A stretch of 64,000 bases of DNA from a virus. The DNA lies in IMG/VR virus record IMGVR_UViG_3300047476_000704, positions 1-64,000 of that record; one strand, written 5' to 3'. This document shows positions 2,751 through 56,096 of the stretch, in pieces. The notes beneath the pieces were generated by a model. The model worked only from the letters and a program-made list of their open reading frames with translations. It was not told the DNA's origin and ran no database searches. The first letter of the stretch is position 1. Each line of letters starts with the position of its first letter. The position numbers and the translations under genes were made by a program.

Positions 2751-4947
<2,197 letters not shown>

Positions 4948-25400: not shown

Positions 25401-25424
25401 TAAAAATAAAAATAGTTTCCTCAT
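22401..25424 (-). CDS. TonB-dependent outer-membrane receptor (Oar/SusC-like)
   Basis: 1007 residues, full length for the family. Signal peptide (1-18, LFLFLALLISTSAIS), carboxypeptidase-regulatory-like domain (about 22-105, INGTIKDKKGETLPGSTI), TonB-box-like NEVVVTATKGG at about 115, plug domain (to about 240) with FAGTNFRYNNVTIDGTINN and GGSINAITRSGTNDIKGS, then a beta barrel ending in the terminal Phe (IQLGVRYNF) recognised by the BAM machinery. No frameshifts. This protein class imports large substrates through the outer membrane of Bacteroidota using host TonB. Its presence inside a lytic-type replication region is striking. It may replace a host receptor, for superinfection exclusion or nutrient uptake. 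The role is inference. Confidence 0.92.
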   Translation of the reverse strand: MRKLFLFLALLISTSAISQVTNSSINGTIKDKKGETLPGSTIQITLTSTGTKYGASADVNGTFHIFNANTGGPYKIKVTSVGYKGLEKDGVYLTLGSNDLDIQLEEETTQLNEVVVTATKGGTKTGAGIYLGEEKLKSVPTLSRAITDFTKLVPQSVNNSFAGTNFRYNNVTIDGTINNDAIGFSPSLGGQGGTSGMPGSSTRTSPISVDAIQDIQVYIAPYDVKVGNFVGGSINAITRSGTNDIKGSIYGFGRNGALAGFNTTSDYVDAQTGFRIGLPLIKNKLFLFTNEEITHRNEPVFYGVNSGGLIDEITAKKISDYTQTKYGYNVGDYKDYSISSNSKKFFNRLDWNINDNNQLTLRNNTTISDATNLERDAANFRFGSQDFRQNVNQSSTVMELRSHLGSASNSLILGYTNIHDYRTPLSENFGFPQTEIAYNGGTIFIGNEREATIFNLKQKTFEFTNNFNFSVGNHSFLIGTHNEFYKIDYGFVNSWNGRIAYKSVDDYLVGKVNRVRGFYGFQNNDRDYIFNNPYAQFDINLLSGYVQDEIQLGNLKLSPGIRFDYTNLPNKPTLSSQTPTQYTNDYFNNINISPRFGFNWKLDNDLVVRGGSGVFVGRIPFAWLGYAYYNDGIGFGSFDLNNRASLKNVGDPITDGAKTFAFNNGQKNLTQIDLVDNGFKMPSVLRSNLAVDKTIGGYKFSVEGLYTQVINDLKFQQINIVTDNPTYYSFDTQKQMPIYSGVKINSNLSNAYLLSNTNKGYRYQLTTSVTKKYPFGLDVYGAYTYGVAKDLTNGIRNSMESNWTLNQSLTPNDPQLAYSNFDIRHRIISQITKSFKTTQVSLVLNSQSGTPFTWGLVNGTLQNNPQAAGLVYIFKDDEVAKYIPNATQAQAFTDFVNSNEYLSSRKGNFTERNGGRTPWSTTIDAKIVQNVGKSFQLTADIFNLTNLLNKEWGEMYFVSNSFNSTSSVGLAKVSGETFSFTKPTQKPYSVDQINSKWQIQLGVRYNF

Positions 25425-41623: not shown

Positions 41624-41652
41624 GCCTATAAATATAAAGTTATGATAATTGT

Positions 41653-41741
41653 AGAGAGTGAGGGGCTCGAACCCTCGCGCCGGTTTTACCCAACCTAACA
41701 GTTTAGCAAACTGCCCCCTTCACCAACTTGGGTAACTCTCT
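41653..41741 (-). tRNA. tRNA-Ser(GCT)
   Basis: Acceptor AGAGAGT/ACTCTCT, anticodon loop TTGCTAA (stem GCAGT/ACTGT), T-loop TTCGAGC. 89 nt, with the long variable arm expected of serine. Confidence 0.88.
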
Positions 41742-41742
41742 G

Positions 41743-41818
41743 TGGTGACTCCATCAGGACTCGAACCTGAAACCTACGCATTAGAAGTGCGTTGCTCTAT
41801 CCATTGAGCTATGGAGCC
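41743..41818 (-). tRNA. tRNA-Arg(TCT)
   Basis: Acceptor GGCTCCA/TGGAGTC, anticodon loop CTTCTAA (stem ACGCA/TGCGT), T-loop TTCGAGT. A 3' CCA is encoded directly after discriminator A. Confidence 0.92.
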
Positions 41819-41823
41819 ATATG

Positions 41824-41910
41824 AGGAGGGTGTGAGATTCGAACTCACGGTCCTGTTACAGACTCCGGTTTTCAAGACCGGTGCAATAGACCAACTCTGC
41901 CAACCCTCCT
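41824..41910 (-). tRNA. tRNA-Ser(TGA)
   Basis: Acceptor AGGAGGG/CCCTCCT, anticodon loop CTTGAAA (stem CCGGT/ACCGG), T-loop TTCGAAT. 87 nt with a long variable arm. Confidence 0.92.
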
Positions 41911-41919
41911 TTTATTATA

Positions 41920-42474
41920 TTACTCTTCGTTTAATTTCAAATCTTCAATAACTTCTTTATGGATTCGTCTTTCCTCTTCCATTAGTTCTTCTAACATTGC
42001 ATAAACTTCATCTCGATAATCATCATCTCCATAGAATTTATTTGCATCAATATCTTCATCTAAATATTCTTCCGAACCATATTCCGATGAATAATATGCT
42101 ATACCCATTGGGTCACAACTTTCGTCCTGAAATGTATTCTCAATTACAACATCCTCTTTGATACATATAAGTTTAGAACATAATTGTTTAAGTAATGGAT
42201 TTACTGCATCCCATGCTGATGTTAGATTGATTGAAATTTCAGTATCCCATTCTCCCTCAATTTGTCCATATACCCATTTAGCACCAACATTATCATTTAC
42301 CCAACCTCTATCATAATCCTCATCTGTCCAATTCATATCATATACACCATTAATTATATCAATTGTATGTGTATCTCCAATTTCATCCTGCACCGAAAAG
42401 ATTCTTTTCAACTCATCAATAACTGCTTGGTTACAATTTTTAACTCTAACCATATTATCTACGTGATTTGCCAT
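41920..42474 (-). CDS. DUF1281-like protein, unknown
   Basis: 184 residues, acidic. MANHVDNMVRVKNCNQAVID at the start resembles DUF1281/YubB-type phage proteins, where a ferredoxin-like domain follows. The middle contains TDEDYDRGWVNDNVGAKWVY, the C-terminus is a highly acidic helix. It overlaps the upstream coiled-coil gene by one base, so the two form a small operon inside the tRNA array. Confidence 0.6.
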   Translation of the reverse strand: MANHVDNMVRVKNCNQAVIDELKRIFSVQDEIGDTHTIDIINGVYDMNWTDEDYDRGWVNDNVGAKWVYGQIEGEWDTEISINLTSAWDAVNPLLKQLCSKLICIKEDVVIENTFQDESCDPMGIAYYSSEYGSEEYLDEDIDANKFYGDDDYRDEVYAMLEELMEEERRIHKEVIEDLKLNEE

Positions 42475-42827
42475 TAGATTTCTTCGGTTTTAGTTTGTGT
42501 TGAATCAGATTTTAATTTAATTTCGGGATATTTTTGGCGAATTTCAACCGAATCTTCAACTGCCCACTTTTGTTTAAGTTTAGCTCTTTTTTCAATATTC
42601 TTCAATTGTTCTTTCTTCTTTTGAATATCTTTTGTTAGTTTTTCAATACGAACATATTTACTTGCATAATCTTCATCGGTGGCATCAATCCACTCAATTT
42701 TTCTTTTAGATTCTTTGATTTCTGCTTTCAAACTTTCAACCAATGGTGCCTCATCACTAAACTTCGGGTCAATAGTTCCACCCAATGTGTTTAGTAAAAG
42801 CATGATAGACATTCCCAATTCTTTCAT
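42474..42827 (-). CDS. coiled-coil protein, unknown
   Basis: 117 residues. A short hydrophobic start (about residues 4-15) is followed by a long charged coiled coil (about 30-95) with many Lys and Glu. Not recognised. It has a -7 promoter box at 42843-42850. Confidence 0.5.
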   Translation of the reverse strand: MKELGMSIMLLLNTLGGTIDPKFSDEAPLVESLKAEIKESKRKIEWIDATDEDYASKYVRIEKLTKDIQKKKEQLKNIEKRAKLKQKWAVEDSVEIRQKYPEIKLKSDSTQTKTEEI

Positions 42828-42842
42828 ATGAATTATTTTTTA

Positions 42843-42850
42843 CAAATATA
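42843..42850 (-). promoter_or_regulatory. -7 promoter box
   Basis: TATATTTG on the minus strand 16 bases before the coiled-coil gene. No clean TTTG at the -33 position. Confidence 0.5.
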
Positions 42851-42891
42851 AGATATTTTTTTATTATATCCTAATTTTATTTAACTTTTGT

Positions 42892-42961
42892 TACCCGAGC
42901 TGGATTCGAACCAACCCTAACTGCACCAAAAACAGTTGTGCTACCGCTACACCATCGAGCA
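42892..42961 (-). tRNA. tRNA-Gln(TTG)
   Basis: Acceptor TGCTCGA/TCGGGTA (G-U pairs), anticodon loop TTTTGGT (stem ACTGT/GCAGT), T-loop TTCGAAT. Confidence 0.85.
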
Positions 42962-42967
42962 ATTCGC

Positions 42968-43040
42968 AGTTCGTACGGGATTCGAACCCGTGGTCTCCAC
43001 AGTGACAGTGTGGGATGTTGGGCCTCTACACCAACGAACT
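42968..43040 (-). tRNA. tRNA-Asp(GTC)
   Basis: Acceptor AGTTCGT/ACGAACT, anticodon loop CTGTCAC (stem CCACA/TGTGG), T-loop TTCGAAT. Confidence 0.93.
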
Positions 43041-43045
43041 AAATG

Positions 43046-43300
43046 TGATTACTGATTTGACTCATTTCGAACTTTCGGGGCTCGTATCATTCAATTTCAG
43101 TAATCAATAATTAAAACAAACTTTTTGTACCCGATGTACATCATAACCAATTCGCATTGGTGGTTACATTTTCGCATTTGGGTTAATTACTCCCGACTTA
43201 TAGTAACTCTCTCCTGACCTGTATGACTATTCCGGCTTCAACAGTACCCTTTTGGATTTTATATACCGAGGGGTTACACCTCAGTCTTCGTTTGTTTTGA
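43046..43300 (-). other. 260-base non-tRNA stretch with hairpins
   Basis: No ORF with coding character. A 10-bp stem TGATTACTGA/TCAGTAATCA encloses 41 bases at 43046-43106. TAACCA/TGGTTA and ACTGAGG/CCTCGGT hairpins follow. The latter ends in CTCGGTA, also present at the start of the elements at 44226 and 48190. Possibly a structured RNA, or a decayed tRNA region. Confidence 0.4.
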
Positions 43301-43372
43301 GCTTCCAGTCGGAATCGAACCAACAACCTCTCGATTACAAATCGAAGGCTCTACCAGTTGAGCTATGGAAGC
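43301..43372 (-). tRNA. tRNA-Thr(TGT)
   Basis: Acceptor GCTTCCA/TGGAAGC, anticodon loop TTTGTAA (stem TTCGA/TCGAG), T-loop TTCGATT. Its 5' end overlaps the stop of the HNH gene. Confidence 0.93.
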
Positions 43373-43782
43373 GTATTATTTCTTTTTTGCAAAGCTATTT
43401 TAGAACCTTTTATACCACCTTCTAACATTCTAGCATAACCTTCTTCTGATATATTTTTTAAACCAAAAGTTGGAGTTTGTGAATGACAATTAGGACACAT
43501 TATTTTTAGGTTTTCATGTCTATTATCTCTTCTATTTCCATTTATATGGTCAATCTGAAATGTTATTGGTTTTCCATTATATTCGGTAATACCACATTCT
43601 TCACATCTTTCACCTCTTATCTTTTTAAGATGAATACCCATACCTTTACTCCAATTAGTATCTAATTGAAACTTTGTTTTAATTCTATCGGCTGCTGAAC
43701 AATCCCACCCACAATACAATCCTTTTGATTGAGATGGCATATATGTTATTTCTTTTCCACAATTTTTACAATTTGATTTCAT
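43363..43782 (-). CDS. HNH endonuclease in the tRNA array
   Basis: 139 residues. Zinc-binding Cys pairs at the N-terminus (NCKNCGKEI, LYCGWDC) and in the HNH core (RCEECGI, then FQIDHINGNRRDNRHENLKI and MCPNCHSQ). It resembles free-standing homing endonucleases of phages, which often insert at tRNA genes. The stop codon lies ten bases inside the tRNA-Thr gene, so transcript processing must separate them. A hairpin of eight base pairs (TAGGTTAC/GTAACCTA) precedes it. Confidence 0.88.
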   Translation of the reverse strand: MKSNCKNCGKEITYMPSQSKGLYCGWDCSAADRIKTKFQLDTNWSKGMGIHLKKIRGERCEECGITEYNGKPITFQIDHINGNRRDNRHENLKIMCPNCHSQTPTFGLKNISEEGYARMLEGGIKGSKIALQKRNNTLP

Positions 43783-43804
43783 AGTATTTTCTTTACTATA
43801 AATA

Positions 43805-43836
43805 TTAGGTTACTAAAAAAAAGTAAAGTAACCTAA
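43805..43836 (-). other. hairpin between tRNA-Glu and HNH gene
   Basis: TAGGTTAC/GTAACCTA, 8 bp, with a T-rich loop. It could end the tRNA transcript or act in the HNH leader. No T run follows on the minus strand, so it is not a classical terminator. Confidence 0.3.
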
Positions 43837-43844
43837 CCAAATGT

Positions 43845-43917
43845 ACTCCGGACGGGACTCGAACCCGTAAGCTTCCACGTGAAAGGCGGATGTCCTAACC
43901 AATTAGACGACCGGAGC
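43845..43917 (-). tRNA. tRNA-Glu(TTC)
   Basis: Acceptor GCTCCGG/CCGGAGT, anticodon loop CTTTCAC (stem TCCGC/GTGGA), T-loop TTCGAGT. A promoter lies six bases upstream. Confidence 0.92.
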
Positions 43918-43922
43918 ATTTA

Positions 43923-43954
43923 CAAATATAACTATTTTATTTTTTAATTCCAAA
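43923..43954 (-). promoter_or_regulatory. Bacteroidota-type promoter for tRNA-Glu
   Basis: TTTG (43951-43954), 20-base spacer, TATATTTG (43923-43930) on the minus strand. Confidence 0.8.
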
Positions 43955-43971
43955 CTTTTATGGAATTATTT

Positions 43972-44054
43972 TGGTGGGGGCAGAAAGACTCGAACTTCCG
44001 AACCCGAAGGAGAGCATTTACAGTGCCCCGCAATTGCCGCTATGCGATACCCCC
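43972..44054 (-). tRNA. tRNA-Tyr(GTA)
   Basis: Acceptor GGGGGTA/TGCCCCC, anticodon loop CTGTAAA (stem GGGCA/TGCTC), T-loop TTCGAGT, long variable arm. 3' CCA encoded. Confidence 0.93.
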
Positions 44055-44153
44055 AATTTAGTCTTTTCCTTACCTCTTAATAACCACATTGCCAGTCCGA
44101 TGTTACTATCGGATGCTTACCAAAATCATACTTTGGAGCGATTACTACATTGA

Positions 44154-44224
44154 GCAGGTAGTCAGATTCGAACTGACGTCTCCGGTTTGGAAGACCAGAG
44201 CACTAACCACTGTGCTATACCTGC
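44154..44224 (-). tRNA. tRNA-Gly(TCC)
   Basis: Acceptor GCAGGTA/TACCTGC, anticodon loop CTTCCAA (stem CTGGT/ACCGG), T-loop TTCGAAT. Canonical shape. Confidence 0.93.
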
Positions 44225-44225
44225 A

Positions 44226-44452
44226 AATTTCCCCACTTGAGATTCCAGATGAGTAGATATTTATAGTTTTTCCTTTCAAAAACCCAATGCATCTTACTGC
44301 TTAAAAAGTCAACACTACGGGGAGGAGCCGTGTCCCCACTCCTTTATTCCCACGAGAACGGCGTTTTATTAGTTAGGATGTCCGCTCCATTACCCTATCC
44401 ATTGTTAAATGAGTCTTGGATTAAAGACTACCGAGTATCTCTTACTCGTTGT
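44226..44452 (-). ncRNA. candidate structured RNA between tRNA-Met and tRNA-Gly
   Basis: 227 nt without a coding frame. It starts with hairpin CGAGTA/TACTCG, continues with AGATACTCGGTA, hairpin AGTCTT/AAGACT, the block AATAAAACGCCGTT, then CTCGTGGGAATAAAGGAGTG and the hairpin GGGG/CCCC around ACACGGCTCCT. The order AGATACTCGGTA, hairpin, ATAA-ACGCC, CGTG-AATAAA recurs in the 5' part of the element at 47277-48266 with a different stem sequence. That is consistent with a related RNA. Confidence 0.5.
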
Positions 44453-44525
44453 GGACCAGGTAGGAATCGAACCTACTACCTTCACATTATGAGTGTGCCG
44501 CTCTAACCGAGTGAGCTACAAGTCC
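44453..44525 (-). tRNA. tRNA-Met(CAT)
   Basis: Acceptor GGACTTG/CTGGTCC with one mismatch, anticodon loop CTCATAA, T-loop TTCGATT. Elongator Met or, if lysidine-modified, Ile for AUA; not separable from sequence. Confidence 0.85.
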
Positions 44526-44581
44526 ATATCGTTTAATCTAACGATAAAATCTAATATCGTTTCTTTCAACGATAAATAAGG

Positions 44582-44690
44582 TGCCGGAGGAGAGATTGGT
44601 TACTCTCACGATGCCCTTCTCGGTTACACCACCACTCTAGAATAGGTACGTCTAATGGTTGTACTTCCCATTTGTTCCGCCACTCCGGCA
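44582..44690 (-). ncRNA. tRNA-like RNA element (109 nt)
   Basis: Perfect 8-bp closing stem TGCCGGAG/CTCCGGCA. The 5' part GTGGCGGAAC resembles a Leu/Ser D-arm, but the T-arm equivalent GAGAG-TAACCAA-TCTCT lacks the TTC motif and no clear anticodon arm forms. It ends nine bases before tRNA-Ala, so it is likely co-processed. A decayed tRNA or a novel RNA. Confidence 0.45.
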
Positions 44691-44699
44691 TATTTCTTT

Positions 44700-44776
44700 T
44701 GGTGGAGAAAGTGGGATTCGAACCCACGACCTCTTGAATGCAAATCAAGCGTTCTAGCCAACTGAACTAAATCCCC
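44700..44776 (-). tRNA. tRNA-Ala(TGC)
   Basis: Acceptor GGGGATT/TTTCTCC with mismatches at its inner end, anticodon loop TTTGCAT (stem CTTGA/TCAAG), T-loop TTCGAAT, 3' CCA encoded. Confidence 0.85.
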
Positions 44777-44780
44777 ATTA

Positions 44781-44884
44781 TGTAACGGCTGTGCGGTTTG
44801 TGTCTCATTCACTCCTTTATACGAGCTTCAAAAGTTTCCATTTCATACCTAGCGTCTGTTCCGCCATTCTTTCGAATCGTTACA
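44781..44884 (-). ncRNA. tRNA-like RNA element (104 nt)
   Basis: Perfect 7-bp closing stem TGTAACG/CGTTACA, four bases from tRNA-Ala and four from tRNA-Leu. Contains ATGGCGGAAC as in the element at 44582. Contains CTCGTATAAAGGAGTG, similar to CTCGTGGGAATAAAGGAGTG at 44226-44452. No T-loop motif or anticodon arm. The tight packing suggests it is excised by the same tRNA-processing enzymes. Confidence 0.45.
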
Positions 44885-44888
44885 TTGT

Positions 44889-44971
44889 ACTTCGGACTGG
44901 AATCGAACCAGCACTCTCTTACGAAAACAAGATTTTAAGTCTTGCGGGTCTACCTATTCCCCCACCGAAGC
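44889..44971 (-). tRNA. tRNA-Leu(TAA)
   Basis: Acceptor GCTTCGG/CCGAAGT, anticodon loop CTTAAAA (stem CAAGA/TCTTG), T-loop TTCGATT, long variable arm. Own promoter begins eight bases upstream. Confidence 0.93.
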
Positions 44972-44978
44972 AACTTTA

Positions 44979-45010
44979 CAAATATACGAAACTTTTTTCA
45001 TATATCCAAA
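44979..45010 (-). promoter_or_regulatory. Bacteroidota-type promoter for tRNA-Leu
   Basis: TTTG (45007-45010), 20-base spacer with AAAAAAGTTTCG, TATATTTG (44979-44986) on the minus strand. One of several near-identical copies in the array. Confidence 0.85.
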
Positions 45011-45033
45011 TGATTTCAACAAAAAGTTTAATG

Positions 45034-45104
45034 TTGCGTGTGTGGGGTTCGAACCCACTTGACTTTCCTTATGAGAGATAGCTCTTTTCCACCAAGCCAC
45101 GCAA
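45034..45104 (-). tRNA. tRNA(CAT), Met or Ile2
   Basis: Acceptor TTGCGTG/CACGCAA, anticodon loop CTCATAA with a weak stem (one mismatch), T-loop TTCGAAC. A second CAT anticodon; an Ile AUA reader is possible. Confidence 0.75.
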
Positions 45105-45109
45105 TATGG

Positions 45110-45183
45110 GGTGTTTAATGGGATTCGAACCCATACTATCAGTACCACAAACTGATGTGCTAACCATTAACACCATAAACAAC
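45110..45183 (-). tRNA. tRNA-His(GTG)
   Basis: Extra 5' G opposite discriminator C, acceptor TTGTTTA/TAAACAC with a first-pair mismatch, anticodon loop TTGTGGT (stem TCAGT/ACTGA), T-loop TTCGAAT. Confidence 0.85.
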
Positions 45184-45185
45184 GA

Positions 45186-45256
45186 GGTGAATATTGGATT
45201 CGAACCAATGTAAAAGGTTTTGCAGACCTCCACCTTACCAACTCGGTCAATTCACC
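45186..45256 (-). tRNA. tRNA-Cys(GCA)
   Basis: Acceptor GGTGAAT/ATTCACC, anticodon loop CTGCAAA (stem GAGGT/ACCTT), T-loop TTCGAAT. Confidence 0.92.
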
Positions 45257-45263
45257 ATTATGT

Positions 45264-45334
45264 AGTTCCATAGAGACTCGAACTCCAACTTTGACATCCG
45301 TAGTGTCAGGTGCTATCCATTACACCATAGAACC
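45264..45334 (-). tRNA. tRNA-Arg(ACG)
   Basis: Acceptor GGTTCTA/TGGAACT, anticodon loop CTACGGA (stem TGACA/TGTCA), T-loop TTCGAGT. A34 would need conversion to inosine by host TadA to read CGU/CGC/CGA. Confidence 0.9.
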
Positions 45335-45339
45335 ATTGC

Positions 45340-45409
45340 ACGTCCTGAAAGATTCGAACTTTCATCTGCGGTTTTGGAGACCGATATGCTACCATTGCAC
45401 CAAAGACAT
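45340..45409 (-). tRNA. tRNA-Trp(CCA)
   Basis: Acceptor ATGTCTT/AGGACGT, anticodon loop CTCCAAA, T-loop TTCGAAT. Confidence 0.85.
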
Positions 45410-45452
45410 GTATTTTATTTCCAAAGTAAAAAATTACCTTCAAAAAATTTTT

Positions 45453-45471
45453 CCAACTTCACCCAAAAGTT
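45453..45471 (-). terminator. possible terminator inside the tRNA array
   Basis: Hairpin CAACTT/AAGTTG followed on the minus strand by GAAAAATTTTTT, downstream of tRNA-Ile. Moderately stable. Confidence 0.45.
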
Positions 45472-45481
45472 GAAAAAGTGT

Positions 45482-45554
45482 AGAGAAAATAGGACTCGAA
45501 CCTATAACCTTCTGCGTATCAGGCAAATGCTCTAACCAATTGAGCTATATCTCT
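45482..45554 (-). tRNA. tRNA-Ile(GAT)
   Basis: Acceptor AGAGATA/TTTCTCT (one mismatch), anticodon loop CTGATAC (stem TTTGC/GCAGA), T-loop TTCGAGT. Confidence 0.9.
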
Positions 45555-45561
45555 ATTCGGT

Positions 45562-45633
45562 AGGGTAAGCAGGACTCGAACCTACAACCTCACGCACCCA
45601 AAACGTGTAATCTAGCCATTGATATACTACCCT
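45562..45633 (-). tRNA. tRNA-Pro(TGG)
   Basis: Acceptor AGGGTAG/TTACCCT, anticodon loop TTTGGGT (stem CACGT/GCGTG), T-loop TTCGAGT. Confidence 0.9.
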
Positions 45634-45640
45634 ATATTGT

Positions 45641-45712
45641 GAACCCGTTGGGAATCGAACCCAAAACCCCTACATTAAAAGTGTAGTGCTCTACCAATTG
45701 AGCTACGAGTTC
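45641..45712 (-). tRNA. tRNA-Lys(TTT)
   Basis: Acceptor GAACTCG/CGGGTTC, anticodon loop CTTTTAA (stem CTACA/TGTAG), T-loop TTCGATT. Confidence 0.93.
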
Positions 45713-45714
45713 GT

Positions 45715-45791
45715 TGGTGGAGCAGACAGGTATCGAACCTGTTCCTCTGGATTTTCAGTCCAGCGCAATGCACCTCATCTGCCACTACTCC
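45715..45791 (-). tRNA. tRNA-Phe(GAA)
   Basis: Acceptor GGAGTAG/CTGCTCC, anticodon loop CTGAAAA (stem CTGGA/TCCAG), T-loop TTCGATA, 3' CCA encoded. Confidence 0.93.
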
Positions 45792-45832
45792 TTCTAATCC
45801 GATTTTGATTTGTAGCATCGGGAACTACCTGT

Positions 45833-45905
45833 GTCCATAGTAGGATTCGAACCTACACAATCTGGTTTCTAAAACCAACACGGTTGCCAATTACGTCATA
45901 CGGAC
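45833..45905 (-). tRNA. tRNA with TAG anticodon (Leu codons) and short variable arm
   Basis: Acceptor GTCCGTA/TATGGAC, anticodon loop TTTAGAA (stem TTGGT/ACCAG), T-loop TTCGAAT. The anticodon reads CUA/CUN leucine codons, but the variable region is only five bases (ATTGT), unlike the long arm of bacterial leucine tRNAs. Confidence 0.75.
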
Positions 45906-45914
45906 ATTTATTGT

Positions 45915-45986
45915 AGTGAGTGAGGGACTCGAACCCCCAACATCCGCCATGTAAAGACGGCGCTCTACCAATTGAGCTAACCCACT
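45915..45986 (-). tRNA. tRNA-Val(TAC)
   Basis: Acceptor AGTGGGT/ACTCACT, anticodon loop TTTACAT (stem CCGTC/GGCGG), T-loop TTCGAGT. Confidence 0.9.
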
Positions 45987-46019
45987 GTTTCACCATTATG
46001 TCAAAGAACTTATTCTTGC

Positions 46020-46090
46020 GTTGATGGTAGGATTCGAACCTACGACCAATAGATTAACAGTCTACTGCGCTACCACTGCGCCACATCAAC
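46020..46090 (-). tRNA. tRNA-Asn(GTT)
   Basis: Acceptor GTTGATG/CATCAAC, anticodon loop CTGTTAA (stem GTAGA/TCTAT), T-loop TTCGAAT. Confidence 0.93.
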
Positions 46091-46103
46091 TTATTTTTAA
46101 TCA

Positions 46104-46136
46104 TAAAAAAACCCCTAACTTTTTGAGTCAGGGGTT
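46104..46136 (-). terminator. strong Rho-independent terminator
   Basis: 11-bp stem AACCCCTGACT/AGTTAGGGGTT with loop CAAAA, then seven T on the minus strand. It ends the transcript carrying the 47-residue ORF, 14 bases before tRNA-Asn. Confidence 0.92.
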
Positions 46137-46163
46137 GTTTTAATTTAAGTATGTAGTTTGGTC

Positions 46164-46307
46164 TTATCCCAAGTCTACATCGTTTAATATTGTTGCCCCT
46201 AACTGATTTTCAATTCCTTTCGAACTAAAATCACACACGCGATTGCCTGCCCACATCAAATTTGATGTCGGTTGATAAGCTATCGTATGCAGGTTAAGAG
46301 TTTTCAT
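46164..46307 (-). CDS. 47-residue small protein
   Basis: Small frame starting MKTLNLHTIAYQPTSNLMWA and ending NQLGATILNDVDLG, preceded by an A/G-rich AAAAGAAAAAAGAAA leader and followed 28 bases later by a strong terminator. The compact gene-plus-terminator arrangement supports it being real. No recognised family. It contains one Cys and no membrane segment. Confidence 0.5.
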   Translation of the reverse strand: MKTLNLHTIAYQPTSNLMWAGNRVCDFSSKGIENQLGATILNDVDLG

Positions 46308-46350
46308 TTTCTTTTTTCTTTTAATATATATAAGTTTTTTTTATTTTAAG

Positions 46351-46911
46351 TTAAAAATCGTAATATCCTTTTACTTTTGTTATATTACAATCGCTATTCC
46401 AAGATATAATTGTTTTTACTACATCACTATCAACTCTAGGTGCTCTATGTAGAATAAAACTTGGGAATGTTAGAACATCTCCTTCTTTCACATCCATCTC
46501 AATTATTTCATCCTGATTTATTGGATTTAATAATTGTGTTTTTGGAGAACCTTCTGGTAAATCTAAATAATAAACATTAGTCCATTGGCATCCTAAATGA
46601 ACATGCCAACCATGTTCCGAACCTTTGTTGTATTGTTGAAACCAAATATTTCTTATTTTAATTTCATCATACCCAAGCTCATCAAATCTATGTTGTAATA
46701 GATTAGTTATTGGTTGCATTACTGGCTTCAAATAAAGCCGTTCAACTTCCCTACTTACATCCCAATCTGTTCTACTTATATCAGTATAATCATTTGGAAA
46801 TGTATATCTTGTAGATTCACATTCATTTATTAATTTCAATACCTCATCCTTTATTATTTCATGCTCTGGTAATTTGGAGATGATATATGGACATTGTATT
46901 GATTTAATCAT
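46351..46911 (-). CDS. 2OG-Fe(II) oxygenase-like protein
   Basis: 186 residues. The metal-binding region is EHGWHVHLGCQWTNVYYLDL (His-x-His, about residue 100) followed by LTFPSFILHRAPRVDSDVVK (distal His and Arg, about 150). It resembles the PF13759-type putative 2OG-Fe(II) oxygenases common in T4-like marine phages. It is the only sizeable protein gene in the middle of the tRNA array. Substrate unknown; its place beside the tRNA genes allows the guess that it modifies tRNA, which is untested. Confidence 0.75.
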   Translation of the reverse strand: MIKSIQCPYIISKLPEHEIIKDEVLKLINECESTRYTFPNDYTDISRTDWDVSREVERLYLKPVMQPITNLLQHRFDELGYDEIKIRNIWFQQYNKGSEHGWHVHLGCQWTNVYYLDLPEGSPKTQLLNPINQDEIIEMDVKEGDVLTFPSFILHRAPRVDSDVVKTIISWNSDCNITKVKGYYDF

Positions 46912-46925
46912 AATCTAATTTTTGG

Positions 46926-46996
46926 AGCGGAGGGATGGAATCGAACCACCTCATTGTACTGGAATGTACACATGCTACCGGAACACTTCCTCCGCT
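46926..46996 (-). tRNA. tRNA, probable Gly(TCC), odd anticodon loop
   Basis: Acceptor GCGGAGG/CCTCCGC, T-loop TTCGATT. The best anticodon stem (TGTAC/GTACA) leaves a six-base loop ATTCCA instead of seven. Anticodon TCC is the likely reading; Trp (CCA) cannot be excluded. Confidence 0.6.
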
Positions 46997-47014
46997 TATA
47001 ATTTAGAAAGATTT

Positions 47015-47112
47015 GTGGGGTGGCTCTTTCTAGTGGAACTAGCTACATTCCGTTTTTACCATTCAACTTTTATTCGTATCGTTGAAGTTATTTTATAGGT
47101 TAAACTCCCCAC
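47015..47112 (-). ncRNA. stem-closed element between two tRNAs (98 nt)
   Basis: GTGGGG/CCCCAC closing stem, inner hairpins TTCAAC/GTTGAA and GGAA/TTCC around TGTAGCTAG. It is bounded by tRNA-Gly-like genes on both sides. No coding frame. Speculative structured RNA. Confidence 0.35.
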
Positions 47113-47204
47113 CTAAAAACTTGGTATTACTTTTTAATCTGATTTGTGGTTAAAGTGTAAAATCAATCTCGTTACCTTCACGCCTATTGAAAACCACTAC
47201 GAAG

Positions 47205-47276
47205 AGCGAAACAAAGGAATTGAACCCCCTCCTTCGACCTGGACGGCCGATGTGCTACCATTACACCAATCTCGCT
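47205..47276 (-). tRNA. tRNA, probable Gly(TCC), U33 missing
   Basis: Acceptor AGCGAGA/TTTCGCT, D-arm TTGGTGTAATGGTAGCACA, anticodon loop CGTCCAG (stem TCGGC/GTCGA) with G instead of the universal U at position 33, T-loop TTCAATT. Isotype uncertain; possibly degenerate. Confidence 0.6.
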
Positions 47277-48266
47277 TATATTATTACGGATGAGAATACT
47301 CACGTAAACGAACCAGCTTTTGTTGGATTATTGTTTCCCAACTTTTCCACTATCTTTTGGATAGTACCGATTCAATGCGGGTTAGTTAAGCCAACCACTC
47401 ATAAAGTTACAAACTACTCTCTCTTTACTCCGCTTCTTCTACTCTGCCGAACAGATTCACACTTGCGGTGTTAGAAGTTTTTCGAAAGAATCACAGACCT
47501 CTTGCGGAGGTATCGTGGCAGGGAACATCTCCCTACTATGTACGCACCTTTCGTTTGCAACTGGCGAACACTTTTGCTCTTTTTGTTTAAGATTTGCGTC
47601 AAATGCAAAATGAGTTTGGTTTGTAGATGGTTTCAAGTAGTGGTTCACCAACCTGCTCCGTTATCTTTTGAACAACAGAATACTGAACTACTCGATGTGT
47701 TATCCCTAACACCATACTTTAAGTCTGCTTCATAACTCCTACCTTGGTAGGTGAAGAGTAAGGATAATAACGACACCACTCGTACTTTATCTTACCTTTC
47801 GGTTTTAAGCAAACTCTAATATTGAATCACGCAATTGTTGAAAGGGATTAAGTTTCAGTTTCTCGCAATAACTCTATGGATTATTCTTATTGGTGTTCCC
47901 ACCTCAACTGAACTATCTACTTTAGCCCAGTCATTTCACCACCCTCTTTACAGTGTTACCCTCAATACTAAAGGTGAAATGATATTCCACTTGCCTACTC
48001 AAGCTCCTTTCGAAGCCGCAAATCACTTAAACCAAATGATTCACTTTATCCTACTTTCGTAGTTTATTTCACGACCATAGGCGGCCGATGTACACTATGT
48101 AGAACTAGTCTACTATGTGCTAATGCTTTTAATAATAATTGAAATGTTGTACATTTTACGGGCGTCTTATTTACAATTAGTCTACTATCCCACAATTATT
48201 ATATTTCTCAAAGAACTTTTTATTTGAGTTACCGAGTATCTTTCATCACCTATTGGTCTCAAATCT
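47277..48266 (-). ncRNA. candidate ~1 kb structured noncoding RNA
   Basis: About 990 nt with no convincing coding frame, less AT-rich than its surroundings, and densely packed with hairpins. Examples are CTAC-GAAA-GTAG, ACC-GAAA-GGT, AGGGA/TCCCT, ATTTCACC/GGTGAAAT (8 bp, enclosing 32 nt), CCTAC-CAAG-GTAGG, ACCTC/GAGGT, ACTATC/GATAGT and CTCAAA/TTTGAG. GNRA tetraloops favour the minus strand. A promoter at 48273-48303 starts it, and a tRNA follows directly. Size, ornate structure and location beside tRNAs recall GOLLD and ROOL RNAs of phages, but no consensus match could be tested. Confidence 0.55.
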
Positions 48267-48272
48267 ATAATA

Positions 48273-48303
48273 CAAATATACGAAACTTTTTCCATATATC
48301 AAA
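48273..48303 (-). promoter_or_regulatory. Bacteroidota-type promoter of the large RNA
   Basis: TTTG (48300-48303), 19-base spacer, TATATTTG (48273-48280) on the minus strand, reading directly into the 47277-48266 segment. Confidence 0.85.
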
Positions 48304-48309
48304 ATTATT

Positions 48310-48507
48310 TTTACTTTTTTTTAAGATTGGTTGTCTCCGGCTTTTTAACCCCCCGCGTTTGGAAAGATATTCACACATTCGGTTTTATTAGATGTTGGCT
48401 TCAACAACCATTCTTAAATATTGGATGAGTAGTGGGATGGTATTTCTACCTCTCGGGTCCTCTTAACACCGGACTTCTCCACACCGGCATACTAACCTCA
48501 TTTTCAA
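48310..48507 (-). other. 198-base noncoding segment with own promoter
   Basis: No coding frame of note. Hairpins GTTG/CAAC, GTCC/GGAC and a G-run CGCGGGGGGTT are seen. It is transcribed from the promoter at 48513-48543 and ends where the next promoter begins. Possibly a small RNA. Confidence 0.35.
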
Positions 48508-48512
48508 CATTA

Positions 48513-48543
48513 CAAATATACGAAACTTTTTTCATATATCAAA
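48513..48543 (-). promoter_or_regulatory. Bacteroidota-type promoter
   Basis: TTTG (48540-48543), 19-base spacer, TATATTTG (48513-48520) on the minus strand, directly after tRNA-fMet. Confidence 0.85.
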
Positions 48544-48562
48544 GTCTTTTTAACTTTTTTTT

Positions 48563-48637
48563 TGGTTGCGGGAGACAGAATCGAACTATCGTAGACCTGG
48601 CTTATGAGACCGGTGGGAAACCAACATCCTCCCCGCG
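48563..48637 (-). tRNA. initiator tRNA-fMet(CAT)
   Basis: Acceptor CGCGGGG/TCCCGCA with the C1-A72 mismatch that marks bacterial initiators; the 5' heptamer CGCGGGG is the same as in E. coli tRNA-fMet. Anticodon loop CTCATAA, T-loop TTCGATT, 3' CCA encoded. Promoter directly upstream. Confidence 0.85.
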
Positions 48638-48650
48638 ATTTATTATGATA

Positions 48651-48682
48651 CAAATATACGAAACTTTTTTCATATATCCAAA
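48651..48682 (-). promoter_or_regulatory. Bacteroidota-type promoter of tRNA-fMet
   Basis: TTTG (48679-48682), 20-base spacer, TATATTTG (48651-48658) on the minus strand. Confidence 0.85.
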
Positions 48683-48689
48683 TGATTTC

Positions 48690-49232
48690 TCATTTATTTT
48701 TTACGATATTAAAAAACTCAAATACATCTTCTTCTAGCATATTACTTTTTAAGTTGTTAGCTGTAAGACTTATGAATTGAATATTATCAATTGTATATGG
48801 TTTTGATGAATCAATTCTATCAATAGATGCTTTGTAATTACTTGATATGGTTTTATATTTTGGTTGATATTGTAATACTAAATCTACATTTGTAAGTTTA
48901 CATTTACCATTTTGATAATTCCATATTTCAACTAATTTATCTAAATCCAATTCATATACAAATTTAGATTTCCTAGCTCTAACTCTTTTAGCAAAATCTC
49001 GCATAGATGATTTGATTTTCTGCTCTTCTGTGATGAGTTTGTTTTCACCACCTTTGAAATGATATGGATTTGCAGATAGTTTTATCATTTCAATATTACC
49101 ATCTCTATTACCAGAACATTTTAGACTACAATAAAAATCGGTCTTTCCCAATTTTATTCTTCTGTTGTATTCGTTTTTTGGTTTTTCAAAATCAACATTA
49201 CATATTTTGCATTTTACTTTTATCGTTTTCAT
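48690..49232 (-). CDS. HNH-type endonuclease with zinc ribbon
   Basis: 180 residues. N-terminal zinc-binding knuckles KVKCKICNVDFEKP and FYCSLKCSGN, a helical linker, then a C-terminal nuclease-like region: GKCKLTNVDLV and YKASIDRIDSSKPYTIDNIQ, the Asp-Arg-Ile-Asp version of the HNH/endonuclease VII beta-beta-alpha motif. Probably a free-standing homing endonuclease within the tRNA array. ATG start of MKTIKVKC preferred to an in-frame GTG two codons upstream. Confidence 0.78.
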   Translation of the reverse strand: MKTIKVKCKICNVDFEKPKNEYNRRIKLGKTDFYCSLKCSGNRDGNIEMIKLSANPYHFKGGENKLITEEQKIKSSMRDFAKRVRARKSKFVYELDLDKLVEIWNYQNGKCKLTNVDLVLQYQPKYKTISSNYKASIDRIDSSKPYTIDNIQFISLTANNLKSNMLEEDVFEFFNIVKNK

Positions 49233-49282
49233 ATCCACTATATGTTTGTATATAAATATAGTGGAGATGAAGAAAACGAATA

Positions 49283-49399
49283 GTGGAGATGGTGGTATTC
49301 GAAACCACGTCCAGATAAGTTTCTAATGTAAATCGTTCACAAGTTTATTCAATTTTTCTAAACTGAAAAAATATAGAGTTTCTATTTTGCCATTGCCAC
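49283..49399 (-). ncRNA. tRNA-like RNA element (117 nt)
   Basis: Closing stem GTGGCAATGG/CCATCTCCAC (8 of 10 pairs). A complete T-arm, GTGGT-TTCGAAT-ACCAC, lies at the 3' side, with hairpins ATAGA/TCTAT and AGTTTA/TAAACT inside. No anticodon arm of standard shape. Longer than any standard tRNA. Compare 41255-41425. Confidence 0.4.
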
Positions 49400-49462
49400 T
49401 CTCAAATGTGGAAGATTCACTTTAATAGGTAGAACCTCAAACGAGACCTCACTTCCGTTCAC
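49382..49462 (-). CDS. possible 26-residue peptide
   Basis: GTG-started frame after AAAAAGAA, encoding NGSEVSFEVLPIKVNLPHLR with a short C-terminal tail. It overlaps the tRNA-like element by 18 bases. Low confidence. Confidence 0.25.
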   Translation of the reverse strand: MNGSEVSFEVLPIKVNLPHLRVAMAK

Positions 49463-49496
49463 TTCTTTTTAAGTCCCACGAGTGATGCGGGATTGA

Positions 49497-49679
49497 TTAG
49501 GCAGCTACTGCGTAATCGAATGAGTTCATCCATGCCATAGCATCTTCGAACGTCATTGTAGATAATTCTACGTCTGCACTTATTGTTTGATAGGTATTCA
49601 AAGGTTTCCATCTAACCTTACTTGCATCAATACAACCAGTCTTCATACCTGTCAAAAGCCGGTCATCCCCATATTTCAA
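49497..49679 (-). CDS. 60-residue small protein, TTG start
   Basis: 60 residues, from a TTG start a few bases after the promoter at 49690-49721. Ends STMTFEDAMAWMNSFDYAVA. No recognised family. The near-leaderless start is unusual. It could be a chance frame upstream of the tRNA-like element. Confidence 0.4.
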   Translation of the reverse strand: MKYGDDRLLTGMKTGCIDASKVRWKPLNTYQTISADVELSTMTFEDAMAWMNSFDYAVAA

Positions 49680-49689
49680 ATAACTTATA

Positions 49690-49721
49690 CAAATATACGA
49701 AACTTTTTTCGTAATTCCAAA
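49690..49721 (-). promoter_or_regulatory. Bacteroidota-type promoter
   Basis: TTTG (49718-49721), 20-base spacer with AAAAAAGTTTCG, TATATTTG (49690-49697) on the minus strand, at the upstream end of the tRNA array. Confidence 0.85.
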
Positions 49722-49734
49722 TAATATATATTAT

Positions 49735-50334
49735 TTATTCAAAGTTTAAAATAACATTACCAGCTGCTACTATTCTTTCTTTTGTAGATTTCGGTGCCAA
49801 CGATGGTAAATGGTCTAAATTTGCATCAAATACATATAGATAACCTTCTTCTGGAAAAAATGTATGTGTTATTCTGTGGTCTTTATCATCTCTAAAAAAT
49901 AACTTACCTTCTGGACCTTCACAATTATCTGGAACCTGTACATAATATACCCATGTCCAATCTGTAAATGTTTCGTAATCCGGATGAAACTTTAAATGAT
50001 TATGATAATGTGCATCTGGTAATTCGGGAACTGCTACATATATCCAAGTTCGTTGATAACCACTTAAATATTTTTCACCATCTAACTCAATGAAAAAATC
50101 TCTTACCTTATTAAAGCAGGATGAAAACATATGTCTGGTTTCATCACCACACAATGCTTGTCCATCAATTTGTAAACCAGGAGCCCTCATTTTAGTATCA
50201 TTGAAACGCTTATCAGGCATCCACATTTCTCTATCAATCTGAACTTCTTTAATAACCTTTTGATTATCAATACCACTAATAGGTATTTTATAAATCTTGT
50301 GATTTAAAAAACCAATTTCTTCGTAACTAATCAT
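49735..50334 (-). CDS. 2OG-Fe(II) oxygenase-like / cupin protein
   Basis: 199 residues. PDAHYHNHLKFH (His-x-His, about residue 110), then DWTWVYYVQVPD and DANLDHLPSLAPKSTKER near 175 giving the distal His and an Arg. The fold is double-stranded beta-helix; a 2OG oxygenase is likely, with a plain cupin as the alternative. It is the fourth such enzyme in the window. Five bases from the kinase gene upstream, so co-transcribed with it. Confidence 0.68.
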   Translation of the reverse strand: MISYEEIGFLNHKIYKIPISGIDNQKVIKEVQIDREMWMPDKRFNDTKMRAPGLQIDGQALCGDETRHMFSSCFNKVRDFFIELDGEKYLSGYQRTWIYVAVPELPDAHYHNHLKFHPDYETFTDWTWVYYVQVPDNCEGPEGKLFFRDDKDHRITHTFFPEEGYLYVFDANLDHLPSLAPKSTKERIVAAGNVILNFE

Positions 50335-54168: not shown

Positions 54169-55293
54169 TTACCTACCAAATCCAATTTTAGGTTTTACTT
54201 CTTCTGTTTTATATTGTTCTGTATTAATATTATAAATATCTGCCAATACCATTTCTTCTTTCACCTCATTATCCATTCCCAAATGTTTTATTAGGATATT
54301 AGTATCTTCTACATTTAGTTTACCAAACTTATGTTCGGCAATCAATCTACCTTTTCGCAATAGAGCAGAATCAATCTTTTCTTTATCCATATTAAATGTA
54401 GCAATAATACTAATGTTTAGAATATCACCCAATATACCATCTGTTAAATTTAGAATGTTAGATACACCCGTAGATGCATAGGAATTATTTCTATCACCAA
54501 TAATCTTCTCCGCATCCTCAATCACCAAAATACAATCTTTGTTGTCCATTAGGAATGGAACAAAATCAGGATTAACAATACTCTCTGCTAAAATTGGTGG
54601 TAAAAACAAAACCTTTCTCTTCATATGATTTGCTAACCATTTGATGTATGTGGTTTTACCTGTACCCGGCAGTCCATGCAACAACACCAATCTACCTCTT
54701 TGTTCCTTTTTAGATGTCAATGCAGTTACAATTGAATCGTTTATTTTAACAAAATCCTTACCATAATTTAATTCTAAATCAATCTTTGGCTTTGGTAATT
54801 TAAACTCCTCCGTTTCGAATCCATACGATGTTGCTTTTAATAAATGTATCTTACCCTCTTTACTTTGTTTAGATAACTTCGTAACATCATCCAATATAGT
54901 ATGTTTTAATATATCTTTTGTACAAGTATATGCAAATGATAATCTATATTGATTCTTCTTTATTGATTTTGAATCTTGTTCTACATAATCTGGCTCATCA
55001 AAGTAATCACCATCAATCTCCGATACATTTATTAAAATCAAATCCATACCATCTACCCGTCTTTCATAAGTAGAATTACATTTTGATTCCTTTGGTGATA
55101 GAAAATACTCCGATTGTTGGATTTTATTAAATCCAGCATTTTCTATTAAGGATAAAACCTTTTTATCAAACTTTATATCGCTTGAAAACTTTGTAGTGTT
55201 ATATAATTTACCAGTCTTTAAGGCAATATATTTGCCCATAGAAAAGTCATCACCATGTCCTGCTGTATATAATTTCTCTAATTCTGTATTCAT
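54169..55293 (-). CDS. AAA-type ATPase
   Basis: 374 residues. The N-terminal 180 residues are unassigned. The C-terminal AAA module has Walker A LLHGLPGTGKTTYIKWLANH (about 208), Walker B CILVIEDAEKIIG (about 255), sensor ISIIATFNMDKEKID and an Arg-finger-like ALLRKGRLIAEHKF. It resembles stand-alone phage AAA ATPases. Role unknown. The ATG start overlaps the stop of the upstream Mom-like gene by one base (TAATG). Confidence 0.82.
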   Translation of the reverse strand: MNTELEKLYTAGHGDDFSMGKYIALKTGKLYNTTKFSSDIKFDKKVLSLIENAGFNKIQQSEYFLSPKESKCNSTYERRVDGMDLILINVSEIDGDYFDEPDYVEQDSKSIKKNQYRLSFAYTCTKDILKHTILDDVTKLSKQSKEGKIHLLKATSYGFETEEFKLPKPKIDLELNYGKDFVKINDSIVTALTSKKEQRGRLVLLHGLPGTGKTTYIKWLANHMKRKVLFLPPILAESIVNPDFVPFLMDNKDCILVIEDAEKIIGDRNNSYASTGVSNILNLTDGILGDILNISIIATFNMDKEKIDSALLRKGRLIAEHKFGKLNVEDTNILIKHLGMDNEVKEEMVLADIYNINTEQYKTEEVKPKIGFGR

Positions 55294-56096
55294 TACCAAA
55301 AGTTTTTAGCTATTTCCGTACTTGGTTCTATTGTAGTATGGTGTTCAATTCCTTTATTATATTCTCTTGCATTTTTTGGATACTCTCTGATTGGATGTTT
55401 TAATCGTTTCATCAAATCTTTCTTCTCCCGTTTGTCCTGTGGTATTAACTGAATGTATCTATGTTTTGGTGGTTCTTCTCTTCTCCAAAATTCAGTATAT
55501 CCATCTTTACCAATTTCTCTACGAAGATGTTCTAAATTACCACTACCCCATTTTGTAAATACACTCCTACTATGTATCCATTTATATGGGTCTTTTTGTA
55601 CCGATATACCATAATTTGGCATCAGTGCAATATCGGTATTTAATCCTTGATAAATCCAATTGGTTGCTTGGTATATTCCACCCAAATGTTCTTGTCCATT
55701 ATCAGCGTATGAGAGCAAAACTTTGATTGCCTTATCATTTTCTTTCAACCACTTAAACGATTGCCCCAGAGCAAAACTTTCAATGTTAGAACCATACCCA
55801 TCATCGCAATATAAACGAGTTAATTCCAAAATGTTATCTTTGGTTAAACCCTCACATACAGATGTAGGTGCCTTTGCTCCAACCGGAAAACCATAGATTA
55901 AACAACCTATAAGTTTTTCAGTATCACCCAAAGCATTTTCGGTATCCGTTTTATAGAATATACCCAACGAATATCTACAAGCAGTCCAAGCGTGAGTATA
56001 GTGTTTCTTTACAATGATTTCTTTTGCAATGGATGTACTAATCTCCCTAACGGATACTCTACTCGTATCACAATAATTTTTATTAGCTTCTTTCAA
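55293..56096 (-). CDS. Mom-like GNAT-fold protein (second of tandem pair)
   Basis: 267 residues. The pattern SIAKEIIVKKHYTHAWTACR, IGCLIYGFPVGAKA, ILELTRLYCDDGYGSNIESF, LLSYADNGQEHLGGIYQATN matches the Mom family, GNAT-like enzymes first known from phage Mu that modify adenine in DNA to block restriction. All core blocks appear intact. It is a close paralogue of the upstream gene, overlaps it by 14 bases and overlaps the ATPase gene by one base. The modification chemistry here is unknown. Confidence 0.75.
   Translation of the reverse strand: MKEANKNYCDTSRVSVREISTSIAKEIIVKKHYTHAWTACRYSLGIFYKTDTENALGDTEKLIGCLIYGFPVGAKAPTSVCEGLTKDNILELTRLYCDDGYGSNIESFALGQSFKWLKENDKAIKVLLSYADNGQEHLGGIYQATNWIYQGLNTDIALMPNYGISVQKDPYKWIHSRSVFTKWGSGNLEHLRREIGKDGYTEFWRREEPPKHRYIQLIPQDKREKKDLMKRLKHPIREYPKNAREYNKGIEHHTTIEPSTEIAKNFW

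Follow-up and report, generated by a model that had tools for sequence, protein, structure and literature searches.

A ribosomal RNA-type boxA leader is predicted in front of a GOLLD RNA that heads a phage tRNA array

INTRODUCTION

The cage structure of the GOLLD RNA has been solved; to our knowledge, its function is not known. The env-38 GOLLD RNA, as determined by cryo-EM, forms a hollow cage as a 14-mer, for which the published inter-subunit contacts include base pairs between loop L20 and linker J13/15 (bridge B7) and a self-kissing loop, L21a (bridge B8), whose palindrome switches between GC and CG (PMC12286853). ROOL (RF03087) is another giant phage RNA that lies near tRNA islands and forms cages (PMC12286853). 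The other described system to be considered here is the boxA element of rRNA operons, for which a gamma-proteobacterial consensus, GYTCTTTAANA (PMC5725501), has been published.

Here, we analyze a locus in a 64,000-nt stretch of viral DNA (referred to as the window) from a record of 194,856 bases. The RNA in question is encoded on the minus strand and consists of a conserved part (48086-47287) and a leader (48266-48087). From its sequence, we read the region as the GOLLD gene of a large Bacteroidota phage, heading a phage tRNA array. The GOLLD family as such is known; what is apparently new is an rrn-type boxA leader common to more than 100 relatives.

RESULTS

A full-length GOLLD match with covariation in both domains

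A search with cmscan matched the minus strand of positions 47287-47695 to the Rfam model RF02032 (GOLLD) with 293.6 bits (cutoff, 150; E = 6e-83). This match spans the entire 416-position model (1-416) at about twice the gathering cutoff, and we refer to the matched part as the 3′ domain. The ROOL model, in contrast, gave no match in positions 46000-50000, neither at its gathering score nor at E values up to 1. A ROOL search of 249 Bacillota genomes was likewise negative but uninformative, since its control was also silent. The locus has the hallmarks of GOLLD, and shares them with env-38: it lies in a phage genome beside tRNAs, and its core of about 800 nt combines a conserved, complete 3′ domain with a distinct and separate 5′ domain.

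For the 5′ domain (47696-48086, minus strand), homologues were sought in IMG/VR with a short 5′ pattern, which matched at least 120 stretches, and a profile was built from twelve full-length sequences. Among the matches listed, this profile aligned end to end, across both domains, in 101 viral loci, 92 of them distinct, counts that represent relatives of shared ancestry and therefore not independent events. The 92 distinct homologues have a mean pairwise identity of 68%, with a minimum of 55%. By blastn, the match of the huge-phage records LR745206 and LR756502 also extends into the 5′ half. Among contigs matched by a short 3′ pattern, GOLLD was absent from 11 of 14 genome contigs and 5 of 23 viral contigs.

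To score covariation among the 92 homologues, an APC-corrected G statistic was computed for every pair of alignment columns (cutoff, E = 0.05) and compared with a null of 40 alignments in which the branch substitutions of a FastTree phylogeny were replayed at random sites, the phylogeny itself being kept; the procedure is a home-made analogue of R-scape and not R-scape itself. There were 62 column pairs above the null, 22 in the 5′ domain and 40 in the 3′ domain, and in every one of them the commonest combination was a standard base pair. Two observations of an earlier, sequence-only reading of this DNA, namely, GAAA tetraloops on the minus strand and long-range pairing, are borne out by these data. 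One GAAA loop (48058-48055) caps a covarying stem (hairpin 48062-48051), within which the pair 48061/48052 varies between UA (54 sequences) and CG (38 sequences). Covarying long-range pairings connect 47649-47643 with 47569-47563 and 47548-47543 with 47379-47374.

The sequence-only reading had considered a giant RNA resembling GOLLD or ROOL, or else a new family, and had proposed scanning with both covariance models. GOLLD matched over its entire model and both halves of the RNA covary, so this part of the proposal holds, and the ROOL part, for which the model remained unmatched, does not. The one point that might favor a new family or ROOL is that the 5′ half lacks a direct Rfam match, which is explained by the fact that Rfam models the 3′ half only; moreover, the 5′ half co-occurs with the GOLLD 3′ half in >90 loci. 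With a full-length RF02032 match at twice the gathering score, a new family is ruled out, the covariance-model search refutes this reading as a whole, and we give it practically no chance. The same applies to a decayed protein-coding region. Short open frames do exist on both strands, but the longest internal ones encode 64 to 77 aa, in keeping with the earlier statement that no credible protein frame is present. Across the 92 homologues, ungapped lengths are not conserved modulo 3 (26, 33, and 33 sequences in the three residue classes), the longest stop-free stretch has a median of 82 codons, and a long common frame is absent. Base-pair covariation throughout the RNA refutes the coding interpretation. 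As also claimed earlier, the composition is unlike that of the flanks, with a G+C content of 0.38-0.42 versus 0.26-0.31 in nearby protein-coding stretches. That 47287-47695 together with the 5′ half represents a genuine GOLLD RNA is, in our view, virtually certain.

Counterparts of the published cage contacts

Counterparts of the env-38 contacts are present here, with the names L20, L21a, and L27 given by helix order and not by alignment to the env-38 sequence. In the counterpart of the L20-J13/15 bridge, two pairs covary: 47576/47505 (CG 54, GC 31, AU 6) and 47577/47504 (GC 85, UA 7). At the dinucleotide of the L21a-like loop, 64 of the 92 sequences have GC, 23 have CG, and 3 have AU, so that 90 are palindromic. 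Pairing of the last hairpin loop with its upstream linker (47348-47345 with 47293-47296) is kept in 92/92, as expected for L27-J24/26. The conserved GAAA hairpin of the 5′ domain might correspond to loop L11a (GAAA) of env-38, a comparison made by description and not letter by letter. Judged by these features of its sequence, the RNA probably assembles into a cage.

A promoter, a hairpin, and a boxA-like motif precede the core

Both ends of the region are as the sequence-only reading had described them, with a promoter upstream and a tRNA gene downstream. The Bacteroidota-type promoter (48271-48303, minus strand) has a −33 element, TTTG, and a −7 element, TATATTTG, and transcription is expected to start near 48266. 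Allowing up to 3 mismatches, this 33-mer (48303-48271) occurs five times in the window versus 0 in 100 shuffles. There follow, on the same strand, a hairpin (48222-48264; predicted fold, −7.4 kcal/mol), a boxA-like antitermination motif, GTTCTTTGA (48208-48216), and a spacer (48087-48207), as delimited by alignment and blastn, leading to the core. Compared to relatives of 97% identity, the spacer contains ∼77 extra bases (48130-48205), partly repeated.

The same arrangement recurs in the relatives. Of 109 distinct loci, selected without reference to the motif, 106 have GTTCTTTRA on the sense strand no more than 150 nt 5′ of the core. The antisense strand gave 0, shuffled sequences averaged 0.7 (maximum, 3), and outside this interval these loci had ∼0.0085 per 150 nt. 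A promoter of the form TTG-N17-23-TANNTTTG lies 5′ of the motif in 91/107 loci versus 1.4 in shuffles and 5 antisense. Hairpins of at least 4 bp occupy the promoter-motif interval in 67 of 76 leaders, with a mean energy of −6.3 versus −1.6 after shuffling. Outside GTTCTTTGAAA, conservation of the leader drops, and the distance from motif to core ranges from 19 to 130 nt. The motif was absent from the upstream sequence (up to 1.5 kb) of GOLLDs that have the 3′ domain only, mostly from streptococcal prophages; a boxA leader is therefore not a property of all GOLLDs.

To place the motif, we compared it with nine Bacteroidota rRNA operons on plasmid records. In six of these (Persicobacter, Aureibacter, Rufibacter, Hymenobacter, Prevotella, and Segatella), the identical 9-mer is found 124 to 223 nt before the 16S gene, and four of the six additionally have GTTCTTTGAC in the 16S-23S spacer. 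Against a boxA reading stand the Flammeovirga leader, with a one-base variant, and the Flavobacterium and Chryseobacterium rRNA leaders in this set, from which the exact 9-mer is absent. Since sequence and place agree with the rRNA leaders, we equate the GOLLD leader motif with the Bacteroidota rRNA boxA; by both, it is a boxA, the predicted site of Nus-factor antitermination. The two systems have in common the 9-mer, its strand, the order promoter-hairpin-boxA, and repeats in spacers, here those of the tRNA array. They differ in that the present element is phage-borne and precedes tRNAs and a giant, probably cage-forming RNA where the host operons have 16S and 23S rRNA. Promoter and boxA form are also the basis for assigning a Bacteroidota host; the DNA polymerase of the phage has its best match among annotated phages in a Microcystis phage (49% identity).

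Two other readings of the motif deserve consideration. Being nearly invariant and, by prediction, transcribed with the RNA, it might be a structural strand of GOLLD that pairs with an A-rich loop or linker instead of acting in antitermination, and the conserved TTCAAAAGA loop of the 3′ domain is indeed partly complementary to it. This complementarity is imperfect, however, the distance to the core is variable, and the motif also precedes phage tRNAs far from GOLLD and sits in rRNA operons of the host phylum, all of which makes a structural strand quite unlikely. Alternatively, on a real GOLLD, the motif might serve another host factor or be an RNase site, such as an rRNA-type processing signal. 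For rRNA, boxA is also described as aiding processing and assembly (PMC10250234, PMC4807359), but the phage motif agrees with the known NusB-S10 site in its sequence and strand and likewise comes after a promoter and a hairpin, which renders this explanation very unlikely. We therefore retain the reading as boxA and expect, from the sequence comparisons, that the element is functional in the GOLLD leader; the combined claim of GOLLD identity and a working boxA leader would, with good confidence, hold as well.

In the open-licence literature searched, we found no link between GOLLD and boxA; co-mentions of the two came from papers on plants and look coincidental. The combined boxA and hairpin leader, which sets the present RNA apart from descriptions of env-38 in this literature, thus appears to be new.

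boxA-like sites recur in the tRNA array

According to ARAGORN, the window has 25 tRNA genes and one tmRNA. Directly 3′ of GOLLD lies tRNA-Gly(TCC) (47204-47275, minus strand), recognized by ARAGORN and Rfam, and farther downstream on the same strand an array (41651-46090) with tRNAs for Asn, Val, Leu, Phe, Lys, Pro, Ile, and others. A second boxA-like site of the spacer form, GTTCTTTGACATAATGG, occupies the gap between tRNA-Asn and tRNA-Val (46001-46009, minus strand) and is kept in the related loci L002, L004, L010, and L014. In 30 loci possessing three or more tRNA or tmRNA genes, boxA-like sites occur at 1.63 per kb on the gene strand in the 60 nt preceding such a gene versus 0.034 per kb elsewhere (∼48-fold); the opposite strand of these zones has none. 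Several relatives have in common the gene order tmRNA, tRNA-Met, GOLLD, tRNA array; many others have GOLLD and boxA with no tRNA in the locus examined, and the leader boxA therefore belongs to GOLLD itself.

Several neighbors of the RNA are noteworthy in their own right. The anticodon loop of tRNA-Gly(TCC), CGTCCAG, has a G in place of the U before the anticodon, which is unusual for a working tRNA. A tRNA-like gene at 46923-46995 (minus strand), which ARAGORN left untyped, has an anticodon loop of odd length (ATTCCA or CATTCCAG) and 79-96% identity in L004, L010, and L021; a nonstandard glycine tRNA or a frameshift tRNA may be encoded here. Between these two genes, which adjoin in L004 and L010, lies a 208-nt element (46996-47203, minus strand), part of which is 76-79% similar to sequence near the GOLLD 3′ ends of L098 and L062. 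Upstream of GOLLD, a tRNA-Met-like gene (CAT; 48565-48645, minus strand) missed by ARAGORN and Rfam has its own promoter copy and is 100% identical in L002, L004, L010, L014, and L098. The ∼195 nt between it and GOLLD (48505-48310, minus strand) also have their own promoter copy, show no Rfam match, and are possibly a second small RNA; in about ten relatives, the part around 48418-48370 is conserved (73-97%) ahead of GOLLD. The phage tmRNA (49283-49670, minus strand) encodes an unusually long tag (ADVELSTMTFEDAMAWMNSFDYAVAA), and a GOLLD-bearing relative contig has a tRNA with the anticodon CTA, of the amber suppressor type (L009:1081-1153, plus strand; ARAGORN). Elsewhere on the minus strand of the window, unusual phage cargo is seen in a TonB-receptor-like outer-membrane protein (22401-25424), a Mom-family DNA modification protein (55293-56096), and a gene that reads as GroEL chaperonin (2751-4397).

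DISCUSSION

By analogy with rRNA operons, we infer that the GOLLD-tRNA island would be transcribed by host polymerase modified with Nus factors. Host RNA polymerase would start at the Bacteroidota promoter, and the transcript would expose the hairpin and then boxA, to which NusB, ribosomal protein S10, and other Nus factors would bind, traveling on with the polymerase. In this way, the untranslated RNA of ∼1 kb and then the tRNA array might escape Rho termination and be assisted in folding as they are synthesized, and boxA sites within the array may renew Nus loading. The GOLLD 3′ end is likely freed by processing of tRNA-Gly, probably through an RNase P cut at the 5′ end of this tRNA. The 5′ and 3′ domains would fold separately, and the RNA would self-assemble into a hollow multimer like env-38. 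As E. coli rRNA is described as Rho resistant even when boxA is missing (PMC5725501), the role of boxA may lie in RNA folding and not in antitermination.

On balance, we lean slightly toward the general proposal that Bacteroidota phages transcribe GOLLD and tRNA islands as a mimic of an rRNA operon, complete with rrn-type leader, spacer boxA, and release by tRNA processing. A role of the RNA in late-infection translation, as a store or shield for tRNAs or ribosomal parts, is a more speculative idea that we consider rather doubtful.

For the family, the present analysis assembles 92 distinct full-length GOLLDs with a covarying 5′ domain that is absent from the Rfam model. The near-universal rrn-type boxA in their leaders indicates which host machine probably synthesizes GOLLD and assists its folding, predicts cotranscription of GOLLD with phage tRNAs, and, being nine bases long, offers a small and easily removed site for probing this RNA. 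Mimicry of an rRNA operon, if true, would mean that Nus factors drive the synthesis and folding of a giant RNA and would tie GOLLD to the ribosome-assembly machinery of the host, offering an initial mechanistic clue to what this RNA does.
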